Below, piece after piece: positions 10,976-20,297 of a stretch of 64,000 bases of DNA. The position numbers were made by a program, and so were the translations under genes. The stretch covers positions 2,294,001 through 2,358,000 of the forward strand of contig NZ_JACBZH010000001.1 in the NCBI RefSeq assembly GCF_013407855.1, given 5' to 3'. Position 1 is the first letter of the stretch. Each line of letters begins with the position of its first letter. The stretch comes from Actinopolymorpha rutila. GTDB taxonomy: Bacteria > Actinomycetota > Actinomycetes > Propionibacteriales > Actinopolymorphaceae. The notes beneath the pieces are model-generated. The model saw only the letters and a list, made by a program, of their open reading frames with translations. It had not been told where the DNA came from and did not search any database.

Positions 10976-12134
10976 GAAGGATGGAGCGAGGTGATGCGGC
11001 CGTCGTCCTCGAACAACCGGACCGGGCGTTCGAGGGTCTGCGACGTCGCGAGCTCCGGCAGCAGCGGGTGCTCCGACGTCAGGTCGTCACCGTCGAGGCT
11101 GAGCCAGCCGCGAACGGCGCCGTACACCCACACGTGGGTGTCGTCCTCGCCCGCCCACAGGGCGAGGACCGTCATCTCCGGTAGCAGGGCGCGCAGGGTG
11201 ACGCCGGTGATGCCGTAGACCTCGACACCACCCGGACCGGGATAGGACTCGATGTCGCACTCGCCGTAGCCGATCCGGAAGAACCCCTGCTCGCCCCAGC
11301 CGGTTCCCCAGCTGTTCTTGGCGATCCAGCACTGTTGGGCGTCGTCGTATCCGACCAGTACGACGCAGTGACCGCCGGTCGCCGCCCCGGACAGGTGCCG
11401 GTAGACCCCCGACCGGTAGCTGAAGAAGTCCTGGTACACGACGAGGCACGCGATGACCGCGCCGTAGATGCGCAGGTGCTCCTTGATCGCACCCGGGCCG
11501 GCGCCGAGCCGGGTGAAGCCGGTGACCCGGGCCCGCCGGTCGAGCCAGCCGAGATCCAGGCTCGAGTCGTCGGCGTCGTCCGGGGAGTACGGAAAGCAGT
11601 CCTCGAACGCCACTCCGGTGTCGGTGACCGACGGCAGCAGCCGCCCGGCCACCACCCGGTGTCCGCGCCCGCTCCGTCGGACCGGCCGTAACCGTGGAAC
11701 GCGTGTGCCTCGGACAGGTCCAGCGGCAGGTCGGGCATGTGCCGGGTGAACCGGGCGACGTGCTCGACGGCCGCCAGCGTCGCGAACGCCACACAACTGC
11801 CGCAGGGGCCCTGGTCCTTGACCGGCGTGGTGTAGTCGACGCCGCCCACGTCGCGCAGGTCGAAGTGGCCCGCCTCTCCGGCGTCGCCGCCCGTCCCGGT
11901 GGACCGGTCCCCGGAACGAGGAGCCGGTAGGGCGGGCGTCGCCGGGACAGTGACCCGGCGCCCGCCCGGGTCGGCCCCGGCGGCCCGGGGCCTTGGCAGC
12001 GGGACTCGGACGCGGCCGGCGCGTTCACTCTCCGACAGCGCCGTCATCGGGTTGCGCGCCATCTCCCAGGGCGTGCCGGCGCCGGTCAGCGTCCGGCCGA
12101 GGTCGACCAGGTCGAGGGGCTGGTGAACAGGCAT
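10972..12134 (-). pseudogene. papain-like C1A peptidase interrupted by a -1 frameshift
   Basis: Two overlapping frames together encode one C1A cysteine peptidase of about 387 residues. The first frame, from ATG 12134, gives a Pro/Arg-rich lead of about 88 residues and then FDLRDVGGVDYTTPVKDQGPCGSCVAF, with catalytic Cys114. Near 11649 the frame must shift to continue with LLPSVTDTGVAFEDCFPYSPDDA, GGHCVVLVGYD (catalytic His) and AKNSWGTGWGEQGFFRIGYG (catalytic Asn). One extra G in the TGGCC context would restore a single frame. All catalytic residues survive and codon use stays normal on both sides, so this is either a very recent mutation or a base-call error. No signal peptide is visible. 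Confidence 0.75.
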
Positions 12135-12668
12135 GGCTTCCCCCGTGGGCGTTTCCGGTGGATCGAGGACTCCGGTCGCCTGCGGGTACGCCGGTGCGGG
12201 CCCGGCGGCCGGTCTGGTGAGACGGTCCGATGGGGCCGTCCGGTGGAGCGAGCGGTGGGACGGGCTGTGGGACGAGCACGGACGGCCGTGGCGCGGATCG
12301 ACGGCGTTCCCCGGTGGGCCGCCGAAGGGTGCGGGCCGGTGCTCTGCGACGTCTCCATGGACGCCCTCCAAGGGGTCCCGGGGTGTTGACTTCCGGGGCC
12401 TTGTGTTCTGGGTACTCCTATGTGAGAAGAGTGACAAGTGGTGACCGGAAAGTAGTCGTTGCGGTTCGGTGAAAGTTCAGACGCCCCGAAAGGCCTGGTC
12501 AGTGCGGATTTGTACCGGCTTCGGGCAGGATCGGGGGATCACCTGGGCGCCGGTCGCCACCCCGGCGCGGGTCCCCGAGCTGTCGGAGCGGCGGTCTAGG
12601 CTGACGCGGGTCGGGCGTGAACGGGACACTTCACGACATCCGGCACACGACTTCCGGGAGGAGCAGGC
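12135..12668. other. intergenic region between peptidase and thyX
   Basis: About 530 nt lie between two divergent genes. Open frames on both strands exist, but their translations are Arg/Pro-rich noise. A less GC-rich stretch near 12395-12480 is the likeliest place for promoters. A ribosome site, GGGAGGAG, at 12655-12662 serves thyX. I see no convincing small gene or RNA. Confidence 0.5.
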
Positions 12669-13582: not shown

Positions 13583-14995
13583 TCAGTTGTCAACCCTGAT
13601 TGGCTTTCCGGTGAAACCGAGGTCGCGGCGGCGGTCGGCGACGACCGCGGCCACGGCGTCGACGAACGCGTCGACCGGCATCGCCGGTAGCCGGCGATCG
13701 TCGCGCAGCCGGACCGCCACGCTGCCGGCGTCGGCCTCCCGCGCGCCGACCACCGCGAGGTAGGGCACCCGGCGCGGGCGGGCGGCCCGCACCCGTGCGC
13801 CCAGGCTCTCGTCGCGGTCGTCCACGTCGACCCGTAGTCCGGCGTCCTCGGCCCGCTGCGCAACCGCCCGGGCCGCCTCGGCCTGCGCCGGGCTCACCGG
13901 GAGGACGAGCACCTGCACCGGCGCGAGCCAGGGCGGCAGGGCACCCGCGTAGGCCTCCAGCAGGTAGGCCACCATGCGCTCCATCGACGCCAGCACGCTC
14001 CGGTGCACCATCGCCGGCCGCTGCCGGCTGCCGTCGGGAGCGACGTACTCCAGGTCGAACCGCTCCGGTTGGTACAGATCCACCTGCACGGTCGACAGGG
14101 TGAACTCCCGCCCGTGCGCGTCGTACACCTGGACGTCGATCTTCGGCCCGTAGAACGCCGCCTCGCCCCGCACCGCGCGAACCTGCACGCCGTGCTGGTC
14201 GAGCGCGTCCCGCAGGATCGCCTCGGCCCGCTCCCACATCGACGCCTCACCCGCGTAGGACTTGCCCTCCTCCGGCGGGCCGGGCAGTGACAGCCGGTGG
14301 TACGCCGCGCGGATCCCGAGGACGTCGTACGCCTCGTCGATCATCGAAAGCGCCCGCACCGCCTCCCGTGCGGCCTGCTCGGGCGGGCAGAAGATGTGCG
14401 CGTCGTTCAGGGTGATGCCGCGCACGCGGGTGAGTCCGCCCACCACCCCGGACCGCTCCATGCGGTACATCGACCCGACCTCGCCGATCCGCAGCGGCAG
14501 CTCCCGGTGGCTGCGCAGCCGGGAGCGGTAGACCAGCGCGTGGTGCGGGCACAGCACGGGCCGCAGGACGAGGTCCTCACCGCCGACCCGGAACGGCGGG
14601 AACATGTCCGGACCGAAGTGCTGCCAGTGGCCGGAGCGTTCGTACAGCGCGCGCTTGCCCACCGCGGGGGTCCGCACGTGGCGGTAGCCCTGCCGGCGTT
14701 CCAGGTCGAGGACGTAGCGTTCGAGTTCGGCGACGACGGCGGCACCGTCGGGCAGCCAGAGCGGGAAGCCGGCGCCGACGAGTTCGTCGCCGGTGAAGAT
14801 GTCGAGCTCGCGGCCGAGCCTGCGGTGGTCGACCGGTCCGTCGCCGGCGTCCGCGAGCGGACTTCGGTCCGGACCCTCGGCCGGCCGCTCCGGTGCGTTG
14901 TGCACGGATTCGACGGGCTCGAGGGGTTCGCCGGGTTCGCGAGATTCGGCTGGTTCGTGGCGAACTGAGCCGGAGGGTGAGTGTGGTGCGTGCAT
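13583..14995 (-). CDS. short threonyl-tRNA synthetase paralogue (no TGS/editing domains)
   Basis: A 470-residue class II synthetase matching only the catalytic and anticodon-binding parts of ThrRS; housekeeping ThrRS has about 640-680 residues. The zinc ligands that select threonine are kept: Cys in LRPVLCPHHALVYRSRLRSHRELPLRIGE, His in NDAHIFCPPEQ, and His in RPAMVHRSVLASMERM. Motif 2 is MYRMERSGVVGGLTRVRG. The anticodon domain (VQVLVLPVSPAQAEAARAV...) ends the protein. The first 55 residues are a Glu/Pro-rich linker in place of the TGS and editing domains. Without editing it could misacylate with serine. It is probably a starvation or resistance paralogue; a full-length thrS should exist elsewhere. 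Confidence 0.9.
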   Translation of the reverse strand: MHAPHSPSGSVRHEPAESREPGEPLEPVESVHNAPERPAEGPDRSPLADAGDGPVDHRRLGRELDIFTGDELVGAGFPLWLPDGAAVVAELERYVLDLERRQGYRHVRTPAVGKRALYERSGHWQHFGPDMFPPFRVGGEDLVLRPVLCPHHALVYRSRLRSHRELPLRIGEVGSMYRMERSGVVGGLTRVRGITLNDAHIFCPPEQAAREAVRALSMIDEAYDVLGIRAAYHRLSLPGPPEEGKSYAGEASMWERAEAILRDALDQHGVQVRAVRGEAAFYGPKIDVQVYDAHGREFTLSTVQVDLYQPERFDLEYVAPDGSRQRPAMVHRSVLASMERMVAYLLEAYAGALPPWLAPVQVLVLPVSPAQAEAARAVAQRAEDAGLRVDVDDRDESLGARVRAARPRRVPYLAVVGAREADAGSVAVRLRDDRRLPAMPVDAFVDAVAAVVADRRRDLGFTGKPIRVDN

Positions 14996-15022
14996 CGGGG
15001 TTCGTCTCCTTCGGGTGAGGGA

Positions 15023-15065
15023 GGGAGCACCCCGAGTGCCAGCCGACCCGGGAGGTGCTCCCGGG
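15023..15065 (-). promoter_or_regulatory. mutually exclusive hairpins of a threonine attenuator
   Basis: In the transcript of the short ThrRS gene, CCCGGGA(15065-15059)/TCCCGGG(15053-15047) forms a 7-bp hairpin. GGGAGCACC(15062-15054)/GGTGCTCCC(15031-15023) forms a 9-bp hairpin that uses the same 5' bases. Only one can form at a time. They lie between the leader-peptide stop (15081) and the synthetase ribosome site (GAAGGAG). This is what ribosome-mediated attenuation needs; no U tract follows, so termination would be Rho-like or translational. Confidence 0.6.
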
Positions 15066-15080
15066 CCGTCCGCGCGGCCG

Positions 15081-15182
15081 TTATCGACTGATCGTTGAGA
15101 AAAGATCGTCGGGACGAGGCCGCCGCGTCGCGGGAAGCGACTGCGGCGTCGTCGTGCTGAACAGGACCGACGCGAAGTTCAC
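15081..15182 (-). CDS. threonine-rich leader peptide of the short ThrRS gene
   Basis: A 33-residue leader starting at GTG 15182 and ending at TAA 15081. Residues 10-12 are three consecutive threonines, all ACG codons, inside LFSTTTPQS; two more ACG codons follow (five in total). It ends 15 nt before the first of two competing hairpins and 85 nt before the synthetase ATG. No Shine-Dalgarno site precedes it, but a TACGCT -10 box lies exactly 6 nt upstream, so the mRNA is probably leaderless. Stalling on ACG codons when charged tRNA-Thr is scarce would change hairpin choice and raise synthetase expression. Confidence 0.65.
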   Translation of the reverse strand: MNFASVLFSTTTPQSLPATRRPRPDDLFSTISR

Positions 15183-15188
15183 GGGACG

Positions 15189-15194
15189 AGCGTA
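15189..15194 (-). promoter_or_regulatory. -10 box of thr leader transcript
   Basis: TACGCT on the minus strand, 6 nt before the leader GTG, fits TANNNT with transcription starting on the GTG. No good -35 hexamer is apparent. Confidence 0.5.
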
Positions 15195-17915: not shown

Positions 17916-18884
17916 TCAGTCGGCGAGGGCGTCCAGCTGCTCGAGCAGGGTGGCGCGTTCGCCGGCGGGCAGGGCCGGGGCGTACGGGTCGAACGCGACC
18001 TCGGCGGGCAGCAGGCCCTGCCAGGCCGCCACCCAGGCCATCCGCTGGACGTAACCCTCCATCGGTTCGCGGAACGTCAACCGGGCAAGGGCGTCCAGCC
18101 GGGCGGAGGCGCCCACGAAGTCCGCGAGGTCGCCGCGCGTCCAGGTGTCCAGGACGGCGGCCGACCACGCGGGCAGCGCGGCGGCGATCCCGAGCAGCGC
18201 CGCCTGGGCGCCCCACATCAGCGACGGTCCGTACATCCGGTCCTCGCCTGTGAACACCAGCGTGTCCGGCGCCGTGGCGGTGGCCGCCTCGAGCAGGTCC
18301 TGGCAGGCCATCGCGTCGTCCAGCAAGGCCAGCTTGACACCGCACACCCAGGGGAGCGCGAGGAGCTCGGCGAGGGTGCCGACGTCGTACTGCAGCCGGC
18401 TCGCCCGCTCGTACAACACGAACGCCACCAGCGGAAGGCCGACCTCCTCACCGAGCCGGACGTGCAGGTCGACCGTCGCGGCCCGGTCCGCGTACGGCAC
18501 GGGGGACACCAGCAGGGCCTGGGCGCCGGCGTCGCGCAGCCGGGCGCCGAGCGCGACGAGGTCGTCCGGCCTCCCGGTGGCGGCGGGCAGCGAGAGGCCG
18601 GCCACGACCGGCGCCCCGGCCACCTGCCCGCACTCGCGGACAAGGAAGGTCAGGTCGTCGGCGGAGAGGTGGACACCGCGGCCGGTGTGCGCGCCGACCG
18701 CCAGGCCGCGCGCACCGGCGTCGACGAGCGCGGTGGCGTACGGTGCCACCGCCGAGCGCGCCACGGTCCCGTCGGGGCGGAACGGCGTGAGCGTCGCCGC
18801 CACGAGCCCGCCCCGCAGCAGGTCGCGCACCTGCGCGACGGGGTCGGTCGGTGGGTTTCCGGGCGATCCTGGGCTGCTGGTCAT
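17916..18884 (-). CDS. DapA-family (DHDPS/NAL) aldolase or dehydratase
   Basis: A 322-residue member of the class I aldolase family that includes DapA, NanA and keto-deoxy-sugar aldolases. The Schiff-base Lys sits in WVCGVKLALLDDA and the Tyr in LVAFVLYERAS. The N-terminal pyruvate-binding loop reads AVGAHTGRGVHLSADD instead of GTTGE, so it is not a true DapA. ATG 18884 was taken since upstream sequence belongs to the divergent promoter. It faces away from a regulator gene 123 nt off, and a second family member lies 1.5 kb downstream. A role in cleaving a keto-deoxy sugar acid is inferred from the surrounding lyase and importer genes. Confidence 0.85.
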   Translation of the reverse strand: MTSSPGSPGNPPTDPVAQVRDLLRGGLVAATLTPFRPDGTVARSAVAPYATALVDAGARGLAVGAHTGRGVHLSADDLTFLVRECGQVAGAPVVAGLSLPAATGRPDDLVALGARLRDAGAQALLVSPVPYADRAATVDLHVRLGEEVGLPLVAFVLYERASRLQYDVGTLAELLALPWVCGVKLALLDDAMACQDLLEAATATAPDTLVFTGEDRMYGPSLMWGAQAALLGIAAALPAWSAAVLDTWTRGDLADFVGASARLDALARLTFREPMEGYVQRMAWVAAWQGLLPAEVAFDPYAPALPAGERATLLEQLDALAD

Positions 18885-18994
18885 GGTCCCCGAGTCTGCC
18901 CTGTCCGGGGCCGGATGCCGATGGGTACGCCGTTCCCGAAAGCCCGGCGTCGTCCGGCCGACCGGGAGTGCGGGCGGAGTTCCGGCGCAGGCCG

Positions 18995-19007
18995 TAACGT
19001 ACGCGCC
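18995..19007 (+). promoter_or_regulatory. -10 box, leaderless start of regulator gene
   Basis: TAACGT (18995-19000) followed by 7 nt and ATG 19008, with no ribosome site. The spacing is that of leaderless actinobacterial mRNAs. Confidence 0.45.
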
Positions 19008-20297
19008 ATGAAGACAACCCAGCGGCCGTCCATGGCGCGCCCGGACCAGGGTGGCAGGAGGGCAGCACCGGACCGCACCCTCGTGTTCGGGGTCGTGGGC
19101 CCTGCCGACCTGGTACCCCGGGTCGCCGCGGCGGCGGAGGCGGCTCCGGCCCTGCGGGCGGTCCGGCTGCCGTACCGCCAGGAGCAGGAGACCGCCCGGA
19201 TCCTGCGCGAGCACGCCGACGAGGTGGACGCCTGGCTGTTCACCGGCGTGGTGCCGCACGCGATCGCCGACGCCGAGCACGCGGTCGGCGCGCCGGCCGG
19301 GCACGTGTCGTACAGCGGCCTCACCCTGCTGGCCGCGTTGTTCCGGCTCGGCCAGCAGGGACGCGACCTGAGCCTGATCAGCATCGACACGCTGGACCCG
19401 CTGGAGGTACGCGAGACGCTCGCCGAGGCGGGCCTGGCGCCGGACGCCGCCCGCACCATGGTCTACGCGCCGGAGGTGCGTTCCCGGGACGTGGTCGCGT
19501 TCCACCGGCAGGCCCGAGACGAGGGCGCGACGGTCGCGGTGACCTGCCTCCGCTCGGCGTACGACGTGCTCCGCAAGGAGATGCCGGTGGTACGCCTCGC
19601 ACCCTCACCGCGCGACATCCGCGACGCGGTGGACGACCTCGCCCTGCAGACCCGGAACGCCCACCATTCCGACGCGCAGGTGGCACTGGGGTTCGTGGAG
19701 CTGGCCGAGACGGACCCGGCGCTCGAACGCGACCTCGGCGAACTCGGCGGCGCGGTGGTCCGGATCGACGCCGAACGCTACCTGCTGGTGACCACGCGCG
19801 GGCCGCTGGAACGGGTCACCGACGGGTTCCGGAGCGCGCCGTTCCTCGGCCGGCTGGCCGAGCGGCACGACCACGTGCACGTCGGGCTCGGCATCGGGCG
19901 TTCGGCGGGAGAGGCGGCCGCGCACGCCTCGCGCGCCCTGGCCCGCGCCCGGGCACAGGGCGACCTCGCCGCTGTCCTCGCCGCGCCGCACGACGCCGAC
20001 ATCATCCTCGCCGTCGGTGAGCCGGCCGAGGGAGCCGGACCGACCGACCTGGGCCGGCTCGCCCAGCGGCTGGGGATGAGCCGGGCGACCCTGCAGTCGC
20101 TGCGGCAGTTCCTGGAGGGCGTCGAGGAGGGCCGGGTCACCGCGACCGAGCTCGCCCTCGCGTTCGAGATCCAGGAGCGCAGCGCGCGGCGGCTGCTGAA
20201 ACGGCTGGAACGCGCGGGCGCGGCGGTCCCGATCGGCACTCTGAACGAGGGCCAGATGGGCCGCCCGCCGGTCGTCTACCACGTCGAGCTGGCCTGA
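19008..20297 (+). CDS. transcriptional regulator with GGDEF/GTP-cyclohydrolase-III-like domain
   Basis: A 429-residue likely one-component regulator. Residues about 25-200 form an alpha/beta domain (LVFGVVGPADLVPRVAAAAEA..., WLFTGVVPHAIA, GHVSYSGLTLLAALFRL) resembling PrpR_N-type effector-binding domains. Residues about 285-320 read GLGIGRSAGEAAAHASRALARARAQG, the pattern found in degenerate GGDEF and archaeal GTP cyclohydrolase III folds. The last 100 residues contain two helix-turn-helix-like stretches (LAQRLGMSRATLQSLRQFL, and EIQERSARRLLKRLERAGAAVPIG). No catalytic GGDEF motif is present. It lies between two DapA-like genes, which are its likely targets. The TACGGTC operator found in this locus is absent from its own promoter. 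Confidence 0.65.
   Translation: MKTTQRPSMARPDQGGRRAAPDRTLVFGVVGPADLVPRVAAAAEAAPALRAVRLPYRQEQETARILREHADEVDAWLFTGVVPHAIADAEHAVGAPAGHVSYSGLTLLAALFRLGQQGRDLSLISIDTLDPLEVRETLAEAGLAPDAARTMVYAPEVRSRDVVAFHRQARDEGATVAVTCLRSAYDVLRKEMPVVRLAPSPRDIRDAVDDLALQTRNAHHSDAQVALGFVELAETDPALERDLGELGGAVVRIDAERYLLVTTRGPLERVTDGFRSAPFLGRLAERHDHVHVGLGIGRSAGEAAAHASRALARARAQGDLAAVLAAPHDADIILAVGEPAEGAGPTDLGRLAQRLGMSRATLQSLRQFLEGVEEGRVTATELALAFEIQERSARRLLKRLERAGAAVPIGTLNEGQMGRPPVVYHVELA

Follow-up and report, generated by a model that had tools for sequence, protein, structure and literature searches.

A conserved threonine leader with attenuator anatomy upstream of a short threonyl-tRNA synthetase gene in Actinomycetota

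Does a run of threonine codons in front of a short threonyl-tRNA synthetase (ThrRS) gene act as a sensor that controls this gene? The question is raised by a locus in a 64-kb stretch of the Actinopolymorpha rutila genome (hereafter the window, to which all coordinates refer), for which a sequence-only reading had proposed a leaderless threonine attenuator upstream of a ThrRS paralogue. Comparison with further loci upheld the leader, which is conserved and keeps a fixed spacing to its promoter box, and corrected both the role given to one of the hairpins and the claim of novelty. The gene, its leader and all hairpins described below lie on the minus strand.

The short ThrRS gene and its leader

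The gene (13583..14995) encodes a 470-aa ThrRS paralogue, in which a tRNA-synt_2b catalytic core and an anticodon domain are the sole domains detected, the TGS and editing domains of the housekeeping type being absent; the protein is above the NCBIfam thrS cut-off (446 bits). Its start codon ATG at 14995 is preceded by the Shine-Dalgarno (SD) sequence AAGGAG (15006..15011). A second ThrRS is encoded elsewhere in the genome by a 698-aa frame and is 41% identical to the short paralogue over the shared part. Among solved structures, the best score for the short ThrRS is that of 1nyq (397 bits), which we take to be the S. aureus enzyme, followed by 6l2p (299 bits) and others near 296 bits, most of them presumably from E. 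coli. These scores and the low identity make it improbable that the paralogue arose by a recent duplication of the host's ThrRS.

The neighbours of the gene are thyX and the divergent dapA and RNase J genes. Near the latter two, an ORF at 17916-19505 (minus strand) has a DHDPS-family match (E 1e-15) and is perhaps a second dihydrodipicolinate synthase-like gene. Another ORF (11172-12437, minus strand), which overlaps other ORFs, has a partial match to Peptidase_C1, the papain family (E 4e-7).

Upstream of the gene, the -10 element TACGCT (15189..15194) is separated by 6 nt from the start codon GTG (15182-15180) of a leader ORF (15081..15182; VNFASVLFSTTTPQSLPATRRPRPDDLFSTISR, read from the sequence) of 33 codons that ends in TAA (15083-15081). 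The leader contains five ACG codons, three of them consecutive (15147..15155), and this threonine run is the predicted stalling site. The box and its gap, the start codon, the codon number, the ACG run, the stop codon, the hairpins, the SD sequence and the ATG were all found at the positions previously claimed for them.

A TAnnnT box is situated 6 or 7 nt upstream of the start codon in 68/68 scripted leader matches with 4–9 nt allowed and in a further 21/21 with 5–8 nt allowed, i.e., 89/89 altogether (the leader at L050 was identified by eye and stands outside the scripted matches). This spacing is a requirement for a start codon placed at the transcription start, and hence leaderless initiation looks to be a fixed trait of the Thr leaders. 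Transcription would begin at or beside the leader start codon, so that the ribosome would load on the RNA 5' end itself.

Conservation of the leader across Actinomycetota

A Thr-run leader is present at 90 of the 91 short-paralogue loci examined, which belong to several families of Actinomycetota. It was observed at 51/51 loci of the order Propionibacteriales, 29/30 loci of a Streptomyces-type genus (one of whose loci is matched at ~80% by named Streptomyces plasmids), 9/9 additional short loci from the phylum search, and one locus of Planomonospora. The sequence-only reading had staked its case on orthologous loci carrying a Thr-rich ORF, and all but one of those examined do. Examples of the leader peptides are MLQRAVVTTTPEYVPAR, MKRAHLTTTPETVPAR, MAGLRSTTTTTGLPPAVCRVR, and MYLLQRTTTPDPLRR. 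The exception, L068 (also L144, genome G726), has no Thr ORF and retains the terminator-like hairpin T and the arm R5 described below, suggesting that this short ThrRS gene may have lost its sensor.

The paralogue itself was matched in 8/8 genomes of the window's family (Actinopolymorphaceae), in 51/293 genomes of the order at E 1e-112, and in 14/396 genomes of the phylum at E 1e-108; in the Streptomyces-type genus, ThrRS matches were found in 60/61 genomes at E 1e-60, with the short form in 30. Three of the 14 phylum matches (L054, L056, L058) are full-length enzymes with the editing motif and were left out, as were L020 and L021 on the same ground, L023 (a 772-aa frame), and L009 and L018 (duplicates of L019 and L007). 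No Thr leader was found in the segments retrieved for 28 loci of housekeeping ThrRS genes.

An RNA model search of 296 phylum genomes yielded five strong matches, every one upstream of a short ThrRS gene, and the model matches L098 and L099, on the reverse strand, coincide with these strong sites. Matches near E 1e-4 (seven loci, comprising five genomes without a strong match and a second place in G420) were discarded, as none matched ThrRS. In the window's genome, the model R1 gave no match under strict filters.

One genome, G699, contains further ThrRS-like sequences. At L143 (contig 316, 24000-32500), two matches with 37% and 51% identity to the window's ThrRS start about 4 kb apart and adjoin genes for a carbamoyltransferase, a DegT-type aminotransferase, and a short-chain dehydrogenase; the region may be a biosynthetic cluster equipped with ThrRS copies of its own. 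The second copy (51% identical) was rejected as a short form, being an 896-aa frame that extends far upstream, and no leader was detected there in the scan.

The short thrS gene together with its leader also occurs on large plasmids (L191, L192, L194, L196) of named Streptomyces and Kitasatospora, where the annotation is plain thrS. The leader was observed in 6/6 named plasmid records opened out of the 19 matching a query that itself contained the leader, namely those of S. anulatus, S. jietaisiensis, one Streptomyces sp., Kitasatospora, Embleya, and Streptantibioticus cattleyicolor. Given this plasmid location, the leader-thrS pair may be mobile.

Might a Thr run and GC-rich hairpins simply have arisen by chance in GC-rich intergenic DNA, where GC-rich arms can pair with nearly anything? 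The complete pattern (TAnnnT, a gap of 6–7 nt, ATG or GTG, an ORF of 8–45 codons, and Thr-Thr-Thr within the first 25 residues) occurs once on both strands of the window, the single match being the leader itself. In 89 other loci (245 kb) it was matched only twice, at L098 and L099, and both of these are Thr-run leaders overlapping L088 and L089, where a short ThrRS gene comes next. The scan and the presence of the leader at nearly all loci refute the chance origin, to which we assign practically no credence.

Constraint on the leader: RNA or peptide

PAR closes the peptide of 49 leaders, with the ending GTCCCGGCGCGCTGA in 48 cases and GCCCCGGCGCGCTGA in one, so that no variation is seen at the wobble positions of these three residues; for comparison, the genes' own usage is 62% for CCG, 43% for GCG, and 46% for CGC. 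In L062, a 1-nt deletion after the Thr run alters the peptide and leaves the RNA largely preserved. In Actinopolymorphaceae, four of eight leaders (those of the window and its three nearest relatives) read GTCGCTTCC in a frame different from the rest, and the sequence GTCGCTTCC..GCGAC.GCGGCGGC is largely kept despite the frame difference. Thus, the constraint on the leader acts at the level of RNA and not of the peptide.

These observations bear on the possibility that a nascent arrest peptide (TTTP..VPAR), rather than the sensing of Thr-tRNA, is what acts. The tail PxxVPAR is indeed common to two distant genera and to named Streptomycetaceae. However, the frame changes in L062 and in Actinopolymorphaceae alter the peptide past the Thr run with the RNA largely retained, the wobble positions are invariant, and the window's leader has no VPAR. 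A peptide-acting leader was rejected on account of the frame changes, and we regard the arrest-peptide explanation as highly improbable.

Hairpins P and T and the predicted antiterminator

In the consensus fold of eight Actinopolymorphaceae, the Thr codons are paired with the downstream part of the leader in hairpin P (regions 1:2, 15113..15153), which has 16 pairs, one of them with a two-sided change. Region 2 (15118..15136), the 5' arm of the predicted antiterminator, begins in the CUUCC loop of P; CTTCC is invariant in 8/8 of these genomes. The corresponding 3' arm is region 3 (15058..15079). Hairpin T (regions 3:4, 15044..15068), which is terminator-like and has its core CCCGGGAGCACCTCCCGGG at 15065-15047, overlaps region 3 with its 5' arm. 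The T stem is present in 69/69 leaders analysed (in L010 it was set by hand).

When the Thr codons are masked in the fold of the window, 15136-15118 pairs with 15079-15058 at -33.5 kcal/mol. To represent the stalled state, the leader was masked as far as 13 nt beyond the first base of the third Thr codon, and the RNA was folded up to the T loop; in 16/17 cases (the miss being L053), the first bases left free are then paired to the upper part of the T 5' arm, through UUCCCG:CGGGAG in the window and CCCGG:CCGGG in the Streptomyces-type and Kribbella-like leaders, the latter label being our presumptive one for one genus of the order. Across 55 sequences, the R2:R3 pairing GUCCCGG:CCGGGGC is formed in 99.7% of cells; it is nearly invariant, and no covariation was found in this set. 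In the shuffle control, the 5' arm of T is blocked at 0.64 vs. 0.51 with the upstream sequence shuffled, and the shuffle fraction is 0.1 or less at 10/69 loci. Within the window's own family, the T arm is blocked to no greater degree than in shuffled sequences (0.66 vs. 0.71 for the window), and the fold is more stable than that of shuffles (z from -0.75 to -2.4). L053 was excluded from the folding counts of 68 loci, and L026 from the antiterminator-forcing test.

As R2:R3 shows no covariation and the shuffle effect is modest, the case for the antiterminator is based on its position, its invariance, and its recurrence in different lineages. On these grounds, the upstream pairing of 15136-15118 with 15079-15058 is the more likely antiterminator, with moderate support. 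Averaged over 55 leaders, the antiterminated fold is less stable than hairpin T by about 12 kcal/mol, so that a working switch would need to operate kinetically. In the window, T lacks a U-run, and hence termination there is not certain; U-runs follow T in some other leaders (L008, L024, L043). Attenuators without a U-run, thrL among them, are also listed for S. lividans (PMC8079986), so that the missing U-run lowers the certainty of termination and is not decisive.

This anatomy makes it very probable, in our view, that the leader is a ribosome-mediated attenuator, which would raise the auxiliary ThrRS under a shortage of charged tRNA-Thr; the isoacceptor sensed would probably be tRNA-Thr(CGU), the one that reads ACG. 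With sufficient Thr-tRNA, the ribosome would reach the stop codon and hairpin T would form. A ribosome stalled on the ACG run would mask region 1, leaving region 2, from CUUCC onward, to pair with region 3; this pairing would pre-empt T, and RNA polymerase would continue into the ThrRS gene. Two downstream hairpins, B and C, may add control of the ribosome site.

Hairpins B and C and the ribosome site

Hairpin B (15023..15062) pairs GGGAGCAC (15062-15055), a segment of hairpin T, with GTGCTCCC (15030-15023), its 3' arm lying between T and the SD sequence. The sequence-only reading had described two hairpins that cannot form together. They are indeed mutually exclusive, and B is real and covarying, but the pairing of 15062 with 15023 cannot be the antiterminator, a role for which B was considered and rejected, because its 3' arm lies past T and is transcribed only after this terminator.

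In the alignment-free comparison of 29 loop classes, B shows 25 mismatches vs. 44.2 ± 3.5 in permuted sets (0/2000 permutations). In the alignment of 55 sequences, 91.6% of cells pair, with two-sided changes at 6/8 pairs; 0/500 shuffles reach any of five measures, and slid controls pair at 35–58%. The 8-mer permutation test was used for B in place of duplex energy: the duplex-energy test, which includes the palindromic CCCCGGGG, gave values below 0.05 at 27/69 loci and ranks of 0.05 or less at 11/40 rare-loop loci and was uninformative, as this stretch pairs with anything. B thus covaries strongly.

Hairpin C (14992..15039; UCGGGGU:ACCCCGA, GCA:UGC, CUCC:GGAG) covers the SD sequence and the start codon, and the arm R5 is common to B and C. 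Since the 3' arm of B is also part of C, B could unmask the ribosome site. The region from T to the ATG folds more stably than its shuffled versions (average z over 68 loci -1.75, with 50 of them below -1; z -3.2 in the window). When the 3' arm of T is blocked, the SD sequence becomes slightly freer (mean 0.25 vs. 0.22 at 68 loci; Wilcoxon p 0.001), with changes exceeding 0.1 upward in 11/68 and downward in 3/68 loci. When the antiterminator is forced (55 loci), the SD mean is 0.24–0.25 either way, with changes exceeding 0.1 upward in five and downward in three loci.

It is conceivable, then, that control acts mainly at the translation start of the synthetase, C masking the SD sequence and B, formed in the absence of T, removing the 5' part of C, with termination being secondary. 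The covariation of B, the folding beyond shuffles, the arm shared with C, and the small gain at the SD sequence are in line with such an arrangement, and the window's T without a U-run might suggest secondary termination. However, in these tests, which constrained the T arm or the antiterminator, the SD shift is small in the first case and nil in the second, and U-runs do follow T in some species. We therefore consider mainly translational control unlikely. As an additional layer on the attenuator, translational control via B and C is possible, although folding gave little support to it.

Partition of threonine codons between leader and gene

In 69 leaders, 213/228 Thr codons are ACG. In contrast, ACG constitutes 5/487 Thr codons (1.0%) in the cores of 68 paralogues and 112/455 (24.6%) in the cores of 28 housekeeping ThrRSs (paralogue vs. 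housekeeping, Fisher 1.7e-32, relatedness ignored). No such avoidance is seen for CCG, GCG, or GTG, whose usage in the paralogue is as usual. For these comparisons the cores were cut by match coordinates, and L051, which lies at a contig end, was left out of the codon count.

The paralogue is also poor in threonine as such, which makes up 1.80% of its core vs. 4.08% in the housekeeping enzyme. In Kribbella-like genomes, the share falls to 0.61% of the core, with one to six threonines per whole protein in 21 genomes; the window's short ThrRS has seven, and 7/7 are encoded by ACC. The log2 depletion in the paralogue is -1.83 for lysine, -1.39 for asparagine, -1.34 for phenylalanine, and -1.18 for threonine, i.e., the first three are depleted beyond threonine, as GC-rich drift would give. 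The loss of threonine itself we would not ascribe to GC drift. Because its Thr codons are few and almost exclusively ACC, the ThrRS mRNA would remain translatable even under the starvation sensed by the leader.

The window's genome contains one gene each for tRNA-Thr(CGU), tRNA-Thr(UGU), and tRNA-Thr(GGU) among 47 tRNA matches. According to the theory of selective charging as set out in PMC1183508, starvation is sensed more sharply by some synonymous codons than by others, and such differences would explain an ACG sensor ahead of an ACG-free gene. The choice of ACG in the run may also be partly dictated by the pairing in hairpin P instead of by the tRNA.

A wider proposal, which we advance tentatively and hold to be somewhat less probable than its negation, is that the leader and the gene form a starvation-proof pair across the phylum. 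In this proposal the ACG leader would stall on uncharged tRNA-Thr(CGU), the ThrRS would have shed its ACG codons and most of its threonine (leaving as little as one residue per protein in Kribbella-like genomes), and a three-armed RNA consisting of T, the antiterminator, and B/C would gate both termination and the ribosome site. A synthetase that almost dispenses with the amino acid it charges would strikingly illustrate selection for synthesis under starvation. In GC-rich bacteria, the partition between ACG in the sensor and ACC in the gene lends itself to testing what the selective-charging theory says about the synonymous codon that suits an attenuator.

A possible role in resistance to ThrRS inhibitors

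The short ThrRS could also serve chiefly to confer resistance to borrelidin or other ThrRS inhibitors, in which case the leader would sense the inhibition; this is compatible with the attenuator and, as the main role of the enzyme, seems to us possible but doubtful. Changes of Leu489 in E. coli ThrRS lead to borrelidin resistance, as reported in PMC4389257, and TrpRS1 with indolmycin, as treated in PMC9437257, provides a parallel. The residue equivalent to Leu489, assigned by motif, is Gln in 64/68 paralogue cores; in the Streptomyces-type genus, it is Gln in 28/29 paralogue cores vs. Leu in 15/20 housekeeping cores. On the other hand, Gln is also found in 9/28 housekeeping cores, including 4/8 within the window's family, so that the borrelidin-site residues do not discriminate and were rejected as proof of resistance. 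Moreover, the Gly463 motif FYGPK is intact in 12/13 sequences compared (the 13th is cut off), as is the His309 motif SGHW in 13/13. The leader-ThrRS pair may nevertheless hint at how soil actinomycetes survive ThrRS inhibitors.

Comparison with known systems

The closest known element is thrL (SLIV_19412) of S. lividans TK24, which is leaderless according to RNA-seq and lies directly upstream of a thrS gene (SLIV_19410; PMC8079986, Table 4). The claim that such a leader had not been described thus falls, as this one has been in print since 2021; in the open-access literature searched, it is the sole report of a leader of this kind. Its peptide MKRVRPFLETTPGFVPAR (...TTPGFVPAR) contains two threonines, and termination is called unclear there (PMC8079986). 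The thrL leader resembles those considered here in carrying Thr codons and preceding thrS, its leaderless start is what the -10 spacing of 6–7 nt would predict for them, and it shares its tail with the Streptomyces-type and Kribbella-like leaders; the window's leader, without the VPAR tail, shares only TTTP with this group. The report concerns one species, and its section on thrL contains no conservation, antiterminator, third hairpin, or codon partition (PMC8079986). The present comparison extends this single-species note to a whole regulatory family, conserved and marked by a fixed leaderless signature. The spread over the phylum, the third RNA arm (hairpin B), and the ACG partition are new as far as the open-access literature searched is concerned, where no account of them was found. 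In the same Table 4, the printed peptide of the S. lividans metNIQ leader, metL, has TTTP besides its Met codons, (PMC8079986); metL may therefore be related to threonine although it precedes a methionine importer.

Second ThrRSs are known from other bacteria. The T2 enzyme of Anabaena edits poorly, is made under stress, and is induced by low zinc (PMC4787780, PMC9437257). It retains the editing domain, which the window's short ThrRS lacks.

In Bacillus, thrZ encodes a starvation-induced second ThrRS controlled by a T-box that binds uncharged tRNA. The window's gene is likewise a second ThrRS, but neither a T-box nor any other Rfam family matched at the gathering score within the window.

Among attenuators that precede an auxiliary synthetase gene, ribosome-mediated attenuation has reportedly been described by Vecchione and Sello in 2010 for the auxiliary, antibiotic-resistant TrpRS gene trpRS1 of S. 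coelicolor; that system senses tryptophan and not threonine. Candidate trpS and leuS attenuators in Streptomyces have a classical leader and terminator before the synthetase genes, and the same survey, in its treatment of threonine operons, reports no conserved structure (PMC1262725).

The thr leader of E. coli has an SD sequence. As in the leaders described here, its ribosome reads a run of Thr codons, but that attenuator precedes a biosynthetic operon and its run consists of eight ACC codons (PMC1183508) instead of ACG. Finally, hairpin B is an element outside the classical 1-2-3-4 attenuator design.
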